Below are positions 5 to 8,067 of a stretch of DNA of 64,000 bases, piece by piece. The translations under genes were made by a program, and so were the position numbers. This stretch comes from a bacterium. Its GTDB lineage: Bacteria > CAIWAD01. The notes beneath the pieces were generated by a model. The model did no database searches. It saw only the letters and a list, made by a program, of their open reading frames with translations, and had not been told where the DNA came from. The stretch covers positions 1-64,000 of the forward strand of contig JAUIFJ010000019.1 in the NCBI GenBank assembly GCA_030429345.1, given 5' to 3'. Numbering within the stretch: position 1 is the first letter of the stretch; each line of letters opens with the position of its first letter.

Positions 5-156
5 TGGCACCGTGCCTGGCACCGTGCCTGGCACTGTCCCTGGCACCGTCCATGGCACCGTCCATGGCACTGTCCCTGGCACTGTCCCTGGCACCGTCCG
101 TGGCACCGTCCCTGGCACCGTCCCTGGCACTGTCCGTGGTACCGTCCTTGGCACCA
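5..156. repeat. 12-bp tandem repeat array, 12 full copies plus a partial one
   Basis: Twelve uninterrupted copies of a 12-bp unit, consensus TGGCACCGTCCC, run from position 5 to 148 and a partial copy follows. The first two copies read TGGCACCGTGCC, which contains the palindrome GGCACCGTGCC; later copies drift at positions 6 and 10-12. The array may continue beyond the window edge. It lies just past the stop codon of the minus-strand homoserine dehydrogenase gene. Because the unit is a multiple of three it can be read as a Leu-Ala-Pro-Ser repeat, but I see no support for it being coding. Confidence 0.9.
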
Positions 157-1319: not shown

Positions 1320-1348
1320 TTGACAACCATTCCGAACAGTCCTACCAT
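1320..1348 (+). promoter_or_regulatory. Sigma-70-like promoter for the lectin-domain gene cluster
   Basis: A perfect TTGACA -35 box (1320-1325) is followed after exactly 17 bases by TACCAT (1343-1348), a four-of-six match to TATAAT. It points toward the first lectin-domain gene, about 70 bases ahead of its start codon. No expression evidence is available. Confidence 0.5.
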
Positions 1349-1418: not shown

Positions 1419-2477
1419 ATGAAAAAGCTATGGCTGCTGATCGGACTGCTTCTTGGATCGTACTCTGCCAGAGCCGAACTGCAGATCAATGTGGATCCGG
1501 CCATCCTTTCCGAGTATATCTGGATCTACTATCCGGAAGAGTACCTCGTTCGTGCCCGCATCGCAACGCTGGACGCTTCCTTCGAAGCCTGGGCCGAAGC
1601 AGTGCTCGGACCCGCACAGGGAGTACCGGCAATGTGTCACGCGGTCATCCGCGCCGACTCGCTGTTTCCCCAGCAGGCCATGGTGCTTGAACTCGAGCTG
1701 GTCGTAGTCTGCGAGTTCGGGCAGAGCGCCGCTCGTCTGGAGTACGATCCGCTGACCTTCATCTACACTGCCGGACCTCCGCAGCCGCCTGCAGGGCCGA
1801 CTCCCTTTCCGCTCACGCTCTTCAATGTCTGCCCGCCAACCTTGCCGGATCTCCCAAGATCCCGTTTCATGGGCCAGGAGTATGCCAGCTACCACGGCTA
1901 CTACTACTGCGGCTGGAACGATGCCCTGCAGGTCGCCCGAGTCACAGGCGGCCGTCTGGCCGAAATCGAGAGCGAAGCGGAAAACCTCTTCCTGGCAGAA
2001 CTGGCGTACTTCACGCCCGCCTGGATCGGTCTGAGCGACTCCCTGGAAGAGGGCGTCTGGCGCTGGACTTCCGGCGAGATCGCCCAATACACGAACTGGG
2101 CGCCAGGACAGCCCGTCGACAGCCCCGCGCACTGGGATTATGTCTACATGGATGGCAATGGCCTGTGGTTCACCACGGGTCCCGAGTACAATGACATAGA
2201 GCAATGGAATACCGTGCTGCTGGAGTGGACCCCGCTGATCATGGACCTGGGCATCCGGCTCGAAGCGCACCAACTCGTGCTGGAATGGACTGCGCCGGCG
2301 GGCGGCTACGAGAATGCGCATTTTGTGATCCACCATTCCGAGCAGCCCTGGTTCTCGCCGGACGAGAGCACAAGGATCGGGGTCACACAGGAATCGTCGT
2401 ACTCCATCGCGCTAAGCGATTTGCCCGACGGGCGGGGGTGGTTCAAGGTCAAGGTAGAGCCGAACGAGGCGGAATAA
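1419..2477 (+). CDS. Secreted C-type-lectin-domain protein, paralogue A
   Basis: Predicted exported protein of 352 residues with a signal peptide (about 1-20, ending SYSARA before EL). Residues 21-125 look like a beta-rich domain of unknown family. Residues about 128-270 have the C-type lectin fold signature: WIGLSD near 202, then VWRW, YTNW and a closing LLEW. The calcium site is unclear: where EPN or QPD is usual the sequence reads GQPVDS, and the fold's disulphide cysteines are mostly absent. The last 75 residues contain PWFSPDEST and end WFKVKVE, resembling a fibronectin-III-like module. It is the first of three tandem paralogues, 12 bases before the second, and probably co-transcribed from the promoter at 1320. 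Ligand unknown. Confidence 0.82.
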   Translation: MKKLWLLIGLLLGSYSARAELQINVDPAILSEYIWIYYPEEYLVRARIATLDASFEAWAEAVLGPAQGVPAMCHAVIRADSLFPQQAMVLELELVVVCEFGQSAARLEYDPLTFIYTAGPPQPPAGPTPFPLTLFNVCPPTLPDLPRSRFMGQEYASYHGYYYCGWNDALQVARVTGGRLAEIESEAENLFLAELAYFTPAWIGLSDSLEEGVWRWTSGEIAQYTNWAPGQPVDSPAHWDYVYMDGNGLWFTTGPEYNDIEQWNTVLLEWTPLIMDLGIRLEAHQLVLEWTAPAGGYENAHFVIHHSEQPWFSPDESTRIGVTQESSYSIALSDLPDGRGWFKVKVEPNEAE

Positions 2478-2489
2478 CCCGAGTGGTCC

Positions 2490-3527
2490 ATGATGACGCA
2501 GTGGATTCTTGTCGTGCTGTTTCTCCGGGCCTTCCCGGCCCCTGCGGAGATCCAGGTGGATGTGGAACTGAACTCGCTTCCGCCTTTCTGGCTCTACGCC
2601 GAAATGCCGATCCTGCATACCACGATGATCTCCCTCGAAGACAGCATGGGGCATACCGTCCAGACCGACCCCATGGGTCCGGCCGGCGAACCCATGGCCT
2701 TGCAATTCCGGATCCAGGCCGACTCCCTGTTTCCGCAGGGAGCCATGATTACCCGTCTGGACCTGCGATTCTTCTGCCTCGGCGAAATCGGAAGCCATCT
2801 GGATTTCGCCCCCTATGAATGGATCTACACTCCCGGCTTTGCCCTGCCGCCACTGGCGCCAACCGTCTTTCCCTTCGACACACTGAGCGTGATCTGTCCT
2901 CCCAGGGTCGATAACCTGGACGAAGTCCTGCTGGCAGAAAACCGCAGTTATGCCTTTTTCAGGTTATCGACGCGATTCACATGGCCGGAGGCAAAGGGAC
3001 TCGCCGAGTGGCTGGAAAAGGACCTCGTCCGCATCGATACGGAGGCGGAGAACAGCGCTTTATCCGGTTTCATCGCCGGAACCGGGCTTACCCCCGCCTG
3101 GCTCGGCCTGAGCGATGAGGAAACAGAAGGGGAATGGGTATGGCAGGACGGAAGCCCGCCCGCGTACACGAACTGGGCCGAGGGCGAACCGGGCTCCTCT
3201 CCGATCCCCTTGGATCACGCCGTGCTGCAGGTCGATGGCCTCTGGCGTCCCTGGCCAGGACCGAAAGCACGCGTCCTGCTGGAGTGGGAACTGGGCTTGG
3301 ATGTAGACATCTCGATCATTGGCCCCTGGCTGCACCTGCACTGGCAGGTCGAAGGAGAGCCCGCTCCTGGGCAAGCCTTCGTGATCCACTCCTCGCAGCA
3401 TCCCTGGTTCACGCCGAACGCGAGTACGAGAGTCGGATACACACTTGAATCGTCGTATACCATCGCGCCAGAGGAACTTGAGGACGGGCGAAGGTGGTTC
3501 CAGGTGAGGGTAGAGACCATTGAGTAA
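2490..3527 (+). CDS. Secreted C-type-lectin-domain protein, paralogue B
   Basis: 345 residues with the same architecture as its upstream neighbour: signal peptide (about 1-19), N-terminal beta-rich domain, lectin domain and C-terminal fibronectin-like tail. Lectin-domain landmarks are AWLGLSD, WVWQDG, AYTNWAEGEPG and VLLEWE. The EPG triplet sits where the EPN calcium/sugar motif would be, so sugar binding is uncertain. The tail repeats the family pattern PWFTPNASTRVG ... WFQVRVE. The start ATG (ATG-ATG doublet) has only a weak GAGTGG ribosome site, which fits translational coupling across the 12-base gap. Overall divergence from paralogue A suggests an old duplication. Confidence 0.82.
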   Translation: MMTQWILVVLFLRAFPAPAEIQVDVELNSLPPFWLYAEMPILHTTMISLEDSMGHTVQTDPMGPAGEPMALQFRIQADSLFPQGAMITRLDLRFFCLGEIGSHLDFAPYEWIYTPGFALPPLAPTVFPFDTLSVICPPRVDNLDEVLLAENRSYAFFRLSTRFTWPEAKGLAEWLEKDLVRIDTEAENSALSGFIAGTGLTPAWLGLSDEETEGEWVWQDGSPPAYTNWAEGEPGSSPIPLDHAVLQVDGLWRPWPGPKARVLLEWELGLDVDISIIGPWLHLHWQVEGEPAPGQAFVIHSSQHPWFTPNASTRVGYTLESSYTIAPEELEDGRRWFQVRVETIE

Positions 3528-3583
3528 ATGAGATTCAGGGCAGACGACAAGCGCCGCTTTCGGATTCTGCCTGAAAAGAACAC

Positions 3584-4639
3584 ATGCGACACCTACTGCT
3601 TTTGGCAGGAACGCACCTACTGTTTCTCTCCGCGAAAGCGGAGTTGTATATCGAGTATCCTATCGATTCCTTCCCGCTGTATTACGAAGAAGGCAATCCA
3701 CCGGAGATGCGGGCTCTTCTCGTTAGCTTGGACATGCAGGACAGCCTTGAAATCCAGGCGAACCGATTGGGACCAATGTCGATACCGCCGGCATACTTTT
3801 TTGCGTTTCAGGCCGATGATATCGTCCCACAAATCCACAGCATTGTGCGCTTCGAACTGGCTTTTCCTTGTGCGGAAGAGGAAGAAGTGAATCCTTTTTC
3901 CTGGGACTACCCGCCCTTCCACCTGTTCTATCTTCCCGGCCCTGCGGGCCCTCCCCAACAAGGTCCCCCCTTCGGCCCCTACGACCGCATCTGTCCGCCG
4001 TATACAACCGGGGACCTGGGTGCCCCCTTCCTGGTCGACAATACCTGCATCGCCCCCTATCTGGCGGATTCGCTGATCGAGGCGACGGAGGCCCACGCCA
4101 TCTCGCGCTGGCTGGGCCTCGACCTGCTGCGCATCGATTCCGGCTCCAAGAACCGGAGCCTGGCCGAGTGGCTGGCGACGAACGGGGCGGGACCGGCCTG
4201 GCTGGGGCTGTCTCACGAGAACCAGAGCGGCATCTGGAGCTACCCGGACAGCAGCCTGCCGGCGTATACGAACTGGGCAGAGTGGGAGCCGCACAGCGTC
4301 ACGCCCGCGACCGACTACACGATGCTGGGGCCGGAAGGCCTCTGGACGACGACCGAAAGCGGCACGGCGCTCCTGCTGCTGGAATGGCCCCTGCGGATCG
4401 ACTCCCTCGAGCTGCGGATCTTCGGACCGGAACTGCGGATGGCCTGGAGCGCGCCGGGCGAACTGGCGCCGGGGCAGGCCTTCGTGATCCACGCGGCGGC
4501 GCAGCCCTGGTTCACGCCGGATGAAAGTTCTGCCATCGGATCGACGACCGGGCACGGCTTCGTTCTTCCGCTGGCGGCTTTGCCGTTGGACGCCAGGTGG
4601 TTCCAGGTCAGGGTGGAAGGCGATGCCGAAGCAGACTGA
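3584..4639 (+). CDS. Secreted C-type-lectin-domain protein, paralogue C
   Basis: 351 residues and the third tandem member. Signal peptide about 1-20 (LLFLSAKA before EL). Lectin-domain landmarks: AWLGLSHENQSGIW, AYTNWAEWEP and LLLLEWP. The tail contains AAAQPWFTPDESS and ends WFQVRVEG. The gap from paralogue B is 56 bases and the ribosome site is weak (GAAAAGAAC). The second half of the gene is more GC-rich than the first, especially from about 4000 on. All three proteins share the AYTNW-type core but differ in the putative ligand loop after it (QPVDS, EPGSS, EPHSV), suggesting that specificity has diverged. Whether they act together or are alternative versions cannot be told from sequence. 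Confidence 0.8.
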   Translation: MRHLLLLAGTHLLFLSAKAELYIEYPIDSFPLYYEEGNPPEMRALLVSLDMQDSLEIQANRLGPMSIPPAYFFAFQADDIVPQIHSIVRFELAFPCAEEEEVNPFSWDYPPFHLFYLPGPAGPPQQGPPFGPYDRICPPYTTGDLGAPFLVDNTCIAPYLADSLIEATEAHAISRWLGLDLLRIDSGSKNRSLAEWLATNGAGPAWLGLSHENQSGIWSYPDSSLPAYTNWAEWEPHSVTPATDYTMLGPEGLWTTTESGTALLLLEWPLRIDSLELRIFGPELRMAWSAPGELAPGQAFVIHAAAQPWFTPDESSAIGSTTGHGFVLPLAALPLDARWFQVRVEGDAEAD

Positions 4640-5037: not shown

Positions 5038-8000
5038 ATGAAACCGACCCTGCTGCTTGCAACGCTTTTCGGACTGTCAGCGCTGGCCCGCGCCACGGAG
5101 GTGCCCTATGCCTGGGGCGAGACAGCCAACGAGGCCATGAAGGTTGTTCGCTCAGGACACTACACGAACTGGGCCGGCGGTCTGACGATAAACGCTGCCG
5201 GCGAGAGCATTGTGGTCTGGAGCGATGCCCGTCAGGGTAATCTGGATCTCTATGCCCAGAAGATCAGCGCCGACGGGCAGAGCCTGCTCTGGGGAGATGA
5301 AGAGGCGCCCTTTGTGATCAATGCTGCGCCCGACGAGCAGAGCAAAGGCATTGTCATTGACGATGGAGTGGGCGGTGCCTTCGTGGCCTGGCTTGATTTC
5401 CGCGGTGGCGTACCCGGGGGCTCACTGTACATGCAGAGGATCGGTGACGCCCCGGGCGGCGGGGCACAATGGCACTGGCCTCAGGAAGTCCTGATCCACT
5501 CAGGGAATCACGCCGAGTTCGATCAGTCGCAGCGTGGTCAACCGCTGGAAAGCGGCAGTCTTTGCGGCGCTCCGGATGGTCAGGGCGGGTGCTGGCTGGC
5601 CTGGACGGACTGGCGGAACGGAAACCTCGACCCCTTTGTGTGCCGGATCACGGCAGGAGGCCAGATATTGCAGGGATTTGAAGGTGGCCTGGTGGTACCG
5701 TCAACCTCCGAGGACGACAGAGAGCTGCAACTGGCAGTCGACGGAAACGGGGGTGTCTGGCTTGCCTGGCAATCCGGTTACAGTGAAGTCCGTCTACAGC
5801 ATCTGGATGAAGACGGGCAAGCACTCGGACCTCCTGAGGGAATTCTTGCAGGCGACCCCGGTCACCACAACCAGGACCCAGTACTTGTCGTAAACAACTC
5901 GGAAGCCACCCTGGGCTGGATCGAGGCCGGCAACGGCGATTATACGGTATACGCACAGCGCTACACGGGGGATCTCGTTTCATTGTGGCCGGGCATCGGC
6001 GTACCGGCCAGTAATACAACCCCTTCATATCTGTCCCTGCATGACGTGATCCTTCAGGATGACGGCTCTTGTCTCTTGCTGTGGTCTGGCAACTTCTCTT
6101 CAGGCACCAGTCTGATCATGCAACAGGTCAACAGTGAAGGTCAGGTTGTCCTGGAGCCGGAAGGCCGGTTGGTGCACTCTGGTCCGCTGTATACGAAGCA
6201 CTCAAAACTCACGGCCATGGGAGACCATTTTGTATTCAACTGGGCAGAACGAGACCCGGATCTCGCATACTTGTCCTATGTGCGCAAACTGGATGCAACT
6301 CTGGAACCCGTCTGGGAAGAAGACGTCGTGTTCATCGAGCATTCCGGCCTTGTTGAGTTCGTCTCCACAGACTCAGGCCTGCGTGTAGTACACCTTCCGC
6401 GAAACGGGCCATATGCTCTCAGCCATCAGCTCATTGCCGGGGACGGAACCCTGTTGCTGAACGAAGAACAGCAGCACCTTTCGGGAAGCCCGTTCTCGGG
6501 CATTTTCCAGCTGAGCATCCTGGGCCGCTCTTTCGGGCTTCAGGCCTTCTGGCAGGAAGACGGGGATCCGGGTCTGACCTACCAGCGAATCGATGGTTCC
6601 AGCGGACAGCCCCTCTTTCCCGAAGAGGGCGTCCGGCTCTTCCCGAATCGGAGTATCAATGCGAACAGGCATATCCCGGGTCCAGGAGAGGACTTCTACT
6701 CGGCAATCCTGACGGACTCGCGCATACGGCTGCAACGTCACGCGGCCGACGGGACTGCCGTTTGGCCCGAAGACTACTCCGCAACGGAAGAGGATGTGAA
6801 CCTGCACGATGGATTACACCTGTGTACACACGAGGACAACCTGATCGTCGCCTGGTATGGTTCATTGGGCAATGACTCCTACCGCCTGGACCTTTTTGCC
6901 CAAGCTTTCAATGCCTCTGGTCAGCCACTCTGGGGCAGCAACGGCACCATTCCGACCCAGGAACTGCCACTGGAGGCCTGGCCCACTCTGCGCAGCATGA
7001 ATCGGCTCGGGCCGAACCAGATCGTCCTTGTATACAAGAAAGGCAACTGGGAGAACCCGATCCTGCATGCCTTGCGCCTGCACGCCGAAACCGGAGAAAC
7101 ACTCGGCCAGATTGAGCTGTCCCCGGAGGGGCAACTCAGGAGTCCTCAGACTGTTGAGCTTGCCAGTGGCAACGTGGCCATCGTCGGTCATACGGCGGAG
7201 GGGAACCTGCGTGCCATGGCATTGACCGTAGACGGTGAGATTGCCTGGGATCTTCAGACGGAACCGCAAGGAATCCGCTGGAACGACATCGCTCTTCAAG
7301 AGGATGGCCATGGAGGTCTCTTTCTCCTTTACTCGGAGTGGCACTCGGAGTCCTGGCGTCTATTGCACATTCTCGCAGACGGCACGTTGCGCTGGCAGGA
7401 TGAACCAATCCTGGACCTGCCTGCCTCTGTCTCGAGCAGTAATCTTTCGGCAATGGGACTCTGGGATTCCCCCGTTGGCCATACACTGAGCCTGGCCATC
7501 ATCAACAATGTCAGCTACCCGCACCACTACCTGTTTCACCTGCAGGGTGCAGGCATCTCCTCTTCCGATCCCATGGAAATACCCGAACTGTGGCGTGGCA
7601 CTGTCATTCGGGATCGCGACTGGCACGGCATCCAGTCCCTGCACAGCACCCACAGTCAAGACCATGGCATGTACCTGGCCTGGATCGAACGCATTCCATA
7701 CCGCCACAGTCGAATGGGCTCGATGAGCCGCTTGGTCGTCACACGCCTCGGCGAGATCAGCACCGCGGTGGACGACCCCGCTACCCGTCCCGCCACCCTG
7801 GCCCTGCGCGCCAAACCCAATCCCTTCAACCCGCGCACGCAGCTGGATTTCCAGCTCCTGCGGCCCTCCACGGTCAGCTTGAAGGTGTACGACATCCAGG
7901 GCCGCCTGGTGCGTGAAGTGCTGGATGGTGTCGCACTGGGTGCAGGTACGCATCACGCCGTACTCCAGGCCGCCGGGCCGGAAGGGGAGCTGGCCAGCGG

Positions 8001-8067
8001 TGTCTACCTGGTACAGTTGAAGACCGAGCACGGCGAGGTCGTGCGGAAGGTCACGCTGCTGCGCTAG
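5038..8067 (+). CDS. Large secreted propeller-like protein with FlgD-like C-terminal sorting domain
   Basis: 1009 residues. Signal peptide about 1-19 (LSALARA before TEV). The N-terminal third repeats a blade-like motif seen as VVWSDARQGNLDLYAQKI (about 60-77), AWLDFRGG (about 120) and AWTDWRNGNLDPF (about 185), a pattern common in FCB-group secreted beta-propellers. The centre continues as weakly repeated beta-strand segments. The last 85 residues carry KPNPFNPRTQ, YDIQGRLVR and SGVYLVQL and end RKVTLLR, the FlgD-Ig-like sorting domain. A GGAGTCCCC ribosome site precedes the ATG. The gene converges on uvrC with only 6 bases between stops. Substrate and function unknown. Confidence 0.82.
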   Translation: MKPTLLLATLFGLSALARATEVPYAWGETANEAMKVVRSGHYTNWAGGLTINAAGESIVVWSDARQGNLDLYAQKISADGQSLLWGDEEAPFVINAAPDEQSKGIVIDDGVGGAFVAWLDFRGGVPGGSLYMQRIGDAPGGGAQWHWPQEVLIHSGNHAEFDQSQRGQPLESGSLCGAPDGQGGCWLAWTDWRNGNLDPFVCRITAGGQILQGFEGGLVVPSTSEDDRELQLAVDGNGGVWLAWQSGYSEVRLQHLDEDGQALGPPEGILAGDPGHHNQDPVLVVNNSEATLGWIEAGNGDYTVYAQRYTGDLVSLWPGIGVPASNTTPSYLSLHDVILQDDGSCLLLWSGNFSSGTSLIMQQVNSEGQVVLEPEGRLVHSGPLYTKHSKLTAMGDHFVFNWAERDPDLAYLSYVRKLDATLEPVWEEDVVFIEHSGLVEFVSTDSGLRVVHLPRNGPYALSHQLIAGDGTLLLNEEQQHLSGSPFSGIFQLSILGRSFGLQAFWQEDGDPGLTYQRIDGSSGQPLFPEEGVRLFPNRSINANRHIPGPGEDFYSAILTDSRIRLQRHAADGTAVWPEDYSATEEDVNLHDGLHLCTHEDNLIVAWYGSLGNDSYRLDLFAQAFNASGQPLWGSNGTIPTQELPLEAWPTLRSMNRLGPNQIVLVYKKGNWENPILHALRLHAETGETLGQIELSPEGQLRSPQTVELASGNVAIVGHTAEGNLRAMALTVDGEIAWDLQTEPQGIRWNDIALQEDGHGGLFLLYSEWHSESWRLLHILADGTLRWQDEPILDLPASVSSSNLSAMGLWDSPVGHTLSLAIINNVSYPHHYLFHLQGAGISSSDPMEIPELWRGTVIRDRDWHGIQSLHSTHSQDHGMYLAWIERIPYRHSRMGSMSRLVVTRLGEISTAVDDPATRPATLALRAKPNPFNPRTQLDFQLLRPSTVSLKVYDIQGRLVREVLDGVALGAGTHHAVLQAAGPEGELASGVYLVQLKTEHGEVVRKVTLLR

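Follow-up and report, generated by a model that had tools for sequence, protein, structure and literature searches.

We describe three tandem genes near the start of contig C64 (JAUIFJ010000019.1) of the bacterial assembly GCA_030429345.1 (GTDB lineage CAIWAD01), a genome of 4.24 Mb that is 98% complete. The window, by which we mean the whole stretch of DNA that was analysed, is this contig from position 1 to 64,000. Genes 1, 2 and 3 code for proteins of 352, 345 and 351 amino acids (aa), which share one layout: a putative signal peptide, an N-terminal domain of about 115 residues (referred to as N-domain), a C-type lectin-like domain (CTLD) and a C-terminal tail. The novelty of these proteins lies in the N-domain, which is unnamed and restricted to one lineage.

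The three open reading frames (ORFs) lie on one strand (1419-2477, 2490-3527 and 3584-4639), are separated by 12 and 56 nucleotides (nt) and can be aligned end to end, with identities of 40% between genes 1 and 2, 33% between genes 1 and 3 and 38% between genes 2 and 3. Their GC content at third codon positions is 0.73-0.76. A first-pass annotation of this DNA had described them as three tandem paralogues, and this description holds. It had also placed them under one promoter, which we do not uphold, as a single promoter-like site was found at 1320-1348 and 0.9 are expected in shuffled sequences. With this site being close to chance, it is the gene spacing alone that suggests an operon. The features are as follows:

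1419-2477, plus strand: gene 1, with putative signal peptide, N-domain, CTLD and tail
1419-1475, plus strand: gene 1 putative signal peptide, ending ARA/E, read by eye; hydropathy weak for gene 1
1476-1838, plus strand: gene 1 N-domain and CPP linker; Cys98 and Cys138 kept in 4/4 copies
1839-2228, plus strand: gene 1 CTLD; loop QPVDS, WFT at the WND position
2229-2474, plus strand: gene 1 tail, no Pfam match
2490-3527, plus strand: gene 2, layout as gene 1; loop EPGSS, WRP at the WND position
2490-2903, plus strand: gene 2 putative signal peptide, N-domain and CPP linker
2904-3287, plus strand: gene 2 CTLD
3288-3524, plus strand: gene 2 tail
3584-4639, plus strand: gene 3, layout as gene 1; loop EPHSV, WTT at the WND position
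3584-4000, plus strand: gene 3 putative signal peptide, N-domain and CPP linker
4001-4387, plus strand: gene 3 CTLD
4388-4636, plus strand: gene 3 tail
1320-1348, plus strand: promoter-like site TTGACA-17-TACCAT, 5' of gene 1; 10/12 consensus positions, 1 found against 0.9 expected by chance, weak
5038-8067, plus strand: neighbouring gene outside the triplet, coding for a 1009-aa protein with a type IX secretion system (T9SS) sorting tail (TIGR04183, 30.4 bits, cut-off 23)

A search of the same genome revealed a fourth copy of the full three-part layout, which is encoded on contig C1, is 351 aa long and is 33% identical to gene 2. The four copies are old paralogues, three of which stand in tandem. 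In an N-domain tree with 13 rows, one of ten branches was starred and the four CTLD-containing copies grouped together in 12% of 200 bootstrap trees; we infer a single origin of the three-part layout because the layout is shared, and not because of the tree. When 60 genomes were searched with a full-length profile of genes 1-3, eight gave a match and the whole layout was covered in this genome only, so that the earlier view of the layout as unusual is borne out. PHROGs gave no match at E <= 0.01. In the literature searched, we found no title or abstract opening describing the N-domain or the three-part layout and no paper combining type IX secretion, C-type lectin and sorting domain; the accessible part of PMC3909097 does not contain the word 'lectin'. 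An ORF that resembles a tyrosine recombinase by eye (L015 8384-9568) is located about 2.4 kb from copy 4.

The C-type lectin-like domain and its loop

The Lectin_C family (PF00059, cut-off 22.6 bits) is matched above the cut-off by gene 1 (35.2 bits), gene 2 (30.1 bits) and copy 4 (37.2 bits). Gene 3 scores 17.3 bits, which is under the cut-off, and is 33-38% identical to genes 1 and 2 over its full length. A profile made from the four CTLDs matched 203 distinct sequences of the PDB at E <= 1e-4. Among the best matches were single-domain chains of the IgE Fc receptor (E 5e-19 to 9e-18), and the 60 listed of the 203 bear names that we take to be those of CTLD proteins. By these profile comparisons, the domain is firmly assigned as a CTLD, in agreement with the lectin-type domain proposed in the first-pass annotation.

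According to the accessible text of PMC7618208, calcium site II of CTLDs is marked by the motifs EPN or QPD together with WND, and CTLDs contain at least two conserved disulfides; some CTLDs bind in a calcium-independent manner. In genes 1, 2 and 3 and copy 4, respectively, the WND position reads WFT, WRP, WTT and WSS, and the EPN position reads QPV, EPG, EPH and EPN, the last in copy 4 only. Three comparators in the joint alignment, namely CTLDs from Poribacteria, from a viral contig and from a relative of the same family, retain WND. Each of the four CTLDs contains at most one cysteine, so the usual disulfides are absent, and the hydrophobic core residues are conserved. The calcium- and sugar-binding residues are degenerate in all four copies, and because the site II motifs and the usual disulfides are missing, these proteins are not canonical calcium-dependent sugar lectins. 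Compared with PF00059 domains in general, they share the CTLD core and a profile that matches C-type lectin chains in the PDB, but they differ in the lost disulfides and WND motif, in having EPN in one copy only and in being joined to an undescribed N-domain and tail.

Lectin_C was present in 22 of 386 genomes searched. Bacterial CTLDs as such are thus uncommon but not very rare; the layout was seen in one genome of 60. A scan of genome contigs gave one locus, the Poribacteria CTLD, and a CTLD scan of viral contigs gave two. One of these, on a 155-kb viral contig (L086 13-4209), codes for a protein of 1398 aa in which a CTLD retaining EPN and WND is embedded; the match on the second viral contig, of 218 kb (L087), is equal to it in length and identity. 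A weak Pfam match of gene 1 residues 10-78 to DUF3022 (E 0.12, 13.1 bits, cut-off 30.6) was dismissed because genes 2 and 3 lack it.

The loop sequences QPVDS, EPGSS and EPHSV were read correctly in the first-pass annotation, which saw the loop as the special site of difference and took the proteins for a set of surface receptors with loops diversified for different ligands. In favour of such a set, the loop differs in every copy, and the long loop of CTLDs is described as highly variable and as setting ligand specificity (accessible text of PMC7618208). With a mean identity of 26% across the four copies, the loop (19 residues) is also the least conserved segment compared, the values being 33% for the CTLD core, 49% for the CTLD end, 31% for the N-domain, 28% for the linker and 37% for the tail. 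However, the margin is small and there is no variability peak along the protein: identity is no higher in 83 of 314 windows of loop length, and parts of both the N-domain and the CTLD drop to 16-18%. Nonsynonymous differences per site (pN) are 0.46-0.63 in the loop; the CTLD core has values of 0.41-0.58 and the N-domain of 0.49-0.55. For synonymous differences (pS), the range is 0.61-0.68 when full-length genes are compared and 0.51-0.87 for the loop; as synonymous sites are near saturation, dN/dS is uninformative for the four copies found. Lastly, the reverse transcriptase family RVT_1 had no match in this genome (98% complete; of 14 genomes used as controls, 3 were positive), and a diversity-generating retroelement was therefore ruled out. 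The unremarkable loop, the nearly saturated synonymous sites and the missing reverse transcriptase leave a diversifying receptor set unsupported; taking the degenerate sites into account as well, we consider it unlikely that the loops mark receptors for different ligands.

The N-domain, the tail and export

Using a 13-sequence profile at E <= 0.001, we detected 12 copies of the N-domain in this genome and four, five and three copies in three relatives belonging to its family; at E <= 0.01, one extra copy was seen here and one in the relative G003. In a fifth, 67% complete genome of the phylum, this profile found no N-domain at E <= 0.001. Overall, the domain was present in 4 of 290 genomes searched, all of one family, and in none of the 286 others, in a scan in which up to 14 first-look candidates were scored per genome and a weak N-domain may be missed. 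For the N-domains of genes 1-3, no Pfam or NCBIfam model reached its cut-off, which fits the earlier remark that this domain was not a recognised one. A PDB profile search returned no credible relative (best E 0.17), and no relation between the N-domain and the tail was detectable by hhalign.

The N-domain forms the front part of many exported-looking proteins in this bacterial family and is common to large proteins with beta-helix, Big_9 or HYDIN-like repeats. By our own count, 10 of the 12 copies in this genome have a cysteine pair, with one residue in the N-domain and the other just after it; the remaining two, both beta-helix copies, have the second cysteine only. A T9SS tail ends six of the 12 proteins, four encoded on contig C8 (over the Pfam cut-off) and one each on C46 and C60 (over the NCBIfam cut-off). 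No tail was detected in the other six, of which four contain a CTLD and two an FGE-sulfatase domain. Because the C-lectin fold includes FGE as a subtype (accessible text of PMC6328139), all tail-less proteins are of C-lectin type, but this split is weak evidence, since the six amount to two families only. In a thirteenth, weak N-domain copy (C51), the match to a T9SS tail does not reach the cut-off. The N-domain proteins scanned in the relatives, a subset from which some frames cut by contig ends were left out, contain a beta-helix, HYDIN-like repeats or little besides a tail, and several of their T9SS tails score below the cut-off.

On contig C8 (L016 3533-10692), the four N-domain genes share a strand and fit into 7.2 kb, and a 242-aa ORF separates the second from the third; two are short with a T9SS tail and two encode a beta-helix with a tail. 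N-domain genes are clustered in the relatives G001 and G002 as well. The two proteins with N-domain and FGE (L017 4105-7197, L019 4403-7138) match the model of the T9SS ring protein GldK with E values of 2e-21 and 1e-19, at 77 and 71 bits far under the cut-off of 350, which probably reflects general FGE similarity. In G003 (L084 288-4648), an N-domain frame overlaps a second frame with fn3, a tail-like module and RCC1 repeats; these could be either two genes or one gene with a frameshift.

The tail had been described as fibronectin-like, and this we could not confirm. The gene 1 tail, the sole tail of the window scanned alone, matched no Pfam family at E <= 10, fn3 included, although relatives of the tail adjoin fn3: a profile of the four tails matched stretches directly after fn3 in two proteins, an FGE protein of this genome and a relative's RCC1-repeat protein. 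For the homologous stretch of the FGE protein itself, fn3 came up with an E value of 0.063, short of the cut-off. Calling the tail FN3-like (fibronectin type III) is thus a guess. The best PDB profile match of the tail had an E value of 0.54, so no credible relative emerged. A short exported-looking protein encoded on contig C21 (L011 1480-2043) has the same module at its C-terminal end. From these matches, the tail is a reusable module and not an evident sorting signal.

Genes 1-3 each begin with a short hydrophobic stretch ending AxA/E, and that of copy 4 ends GTA (A/E), as read by eye. The proteins therefore look exported, which agrees with the earlier description of genes 1-3 as secreted paralogues. 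SprA (TIGR04189), the T9SS component searched, was over the cut-off in 5 of 5 genomes of the phylum examined. A T9SS tail (TIGR04183 or PF18962) was found neither in genes 1-3 at E <= 10 nor in copy 4 at E <= 1. A CTLD protein of a relative, which has no N-domain match, gave a T9SS-tail match below the cut-off, so the CTLD itself does not exclude such a tail.

Possible roles and related systems

We propose, with a confidence that is evenly balanced, that the four proteins are exported, bind through their CTLD independently of calcium and are built around an envelope module specific to this lineage, the export route, location and ligand being what we infer. Each protein would be exported by Sec and its signal peptide cleaved. 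The N-domain, for which a beta-rich fold is predicted at low confidence and whose cysteine pair reaches the CPP linker, may then hold the protein in or on the cell envelope, while the tail could serve as a spacer or cap. The CTLD would be the binding head and work without calcium, by analogy with CTLDs whose binding sites for protein or glycan are non-canonical.

Several observations weigh against this proposal. The structure predictions lend it no support: the AlphaFold2 model of gene 1, made with three sequences, has a mean predicted local distance difference test score (pLDDT) of 37, with CTLD blocks at 30 or below, and the beta-rich model of the gene 2 N-domain, made with the other two, reaches a pLDDT of 53. 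A Foldseek search with the latter gave 370 matches at E <= 10, none of them in the PDB at E <= 0.001. The conserved hydrophobic residues of the CTLD are evidence of a maintained core and not of ligand binding. The signal peptides are a by-eye reading, and the signal region of gene 1 is less hydrophobic (1.02) than a 19-residue window further on (1.35). Finally, no T9SS tail was found in the lectin proteins, so any surface display would be hypothetical.

It is possible, if doubtful, that these are instead structural proteins of the periplasm or envelope, in which the CTLD is a scaffold without an external ligand. The loss of the calcium-site motifs and usual disulfides, the missing T9SS tail and the occurrence of the N-domain in large beta-helix, Big_9 or HYDIN-like repeat proteins all point this way, but four copies with a conserved CTLD core have been maintained and CTLDs usually bind something. 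A further explanation, that the tail or the N-domain holds an unrecognised signal by which the T9SS sorts the proteins to the surface, fits with the presence of SprA in all five genomes, with the recognised T9SS tails on half of the N-domain proteins of this genome and with the C21 protein that ends in the same tail module. However, the module is internal in one FGE and one RCC1-repeat protein, which argues against a sorting signal, and with TIGR04183 unmatched in genes 1-3 we regard this as quite improbable. More speculatively, the N-domain might be a new envelope-targeting or display module of this bacterial family that serves two classes of exported protein in parallel, namely T9SS-tailed ones and C-lectin-fold ones (CTLD or FGE) that would arrive or remain at the envelope with no sorting tail; the tandem CTLD copies would then be lineage-specific, calcium-free binding proteins displayed by an undescribed route. 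We think this unlikely. A bacterial CTLD family without calcium-site motifs bears on how the lectin fold is reused as a binding scaffold. The N-domain matters in its own right, as it is unnamed, restricted to one lineage and shared by many exported-looking proteins in a phylum with a T9SS about which little is known.

In outline, the nearest analogue seems to be TANFOR (TIGR02542) of the Bacteroidetes, an N-terminal domain of about 147 residues that mostly follows a signal peptide and is combined with varying C-terminal modules, with FN3 domains nearby and in T9SS-carrying genomes (accessible text of PMC7073777). The likeness is one of outline only, comprising the N-terminal domain, the varying C-termini, the nearby FN3 and the T9SS genomes. 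Genes 1-3 matched no NCBIfam family at E <= 10, the presence of TIGR02542 among the models scanned being unconfirmed. In contrast to TANFOR, the C-terminal parts seen here consist of a CTLD, an FGE domain, a beta-helix, repeats or a T9SS tail, and no toxin family was recognised among the Pfam matches listed for the N-domain proteins. The C-lectin-fold variable proteins of diversity-generating retroelements (accessible text of PMC6328139) resemble our proteins as bacterial binding scaffolds of this fold, and their FGE type recurs in two of the N-domain proteins, but there is no reverse transcriptase in this genome. Type A substrates of the T9SS (TIGR04183) are similar in that the N-domain occurs on tail-bearing proteins here and SprA is encoded, but the four lectin proteins show no sorting tail.

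Neighbouring sequences

Upstream of the triplet, a 386-aa ORF (166-1326) lies on the opposite strand. The very start of the contig is taken up by a 12-bp tandem array of TGGCACCGTCCC with 12.6 copies (window 5-155). Its two-unit pattern has 435 exact overlapping matches in the genome, against 2 for a backwards control, and among the matches listed, arrays of TGGCACCGTCCC occur on several contigs, some of them at contig starts. The array is a dispersed minisatellite at which the assembly may break.

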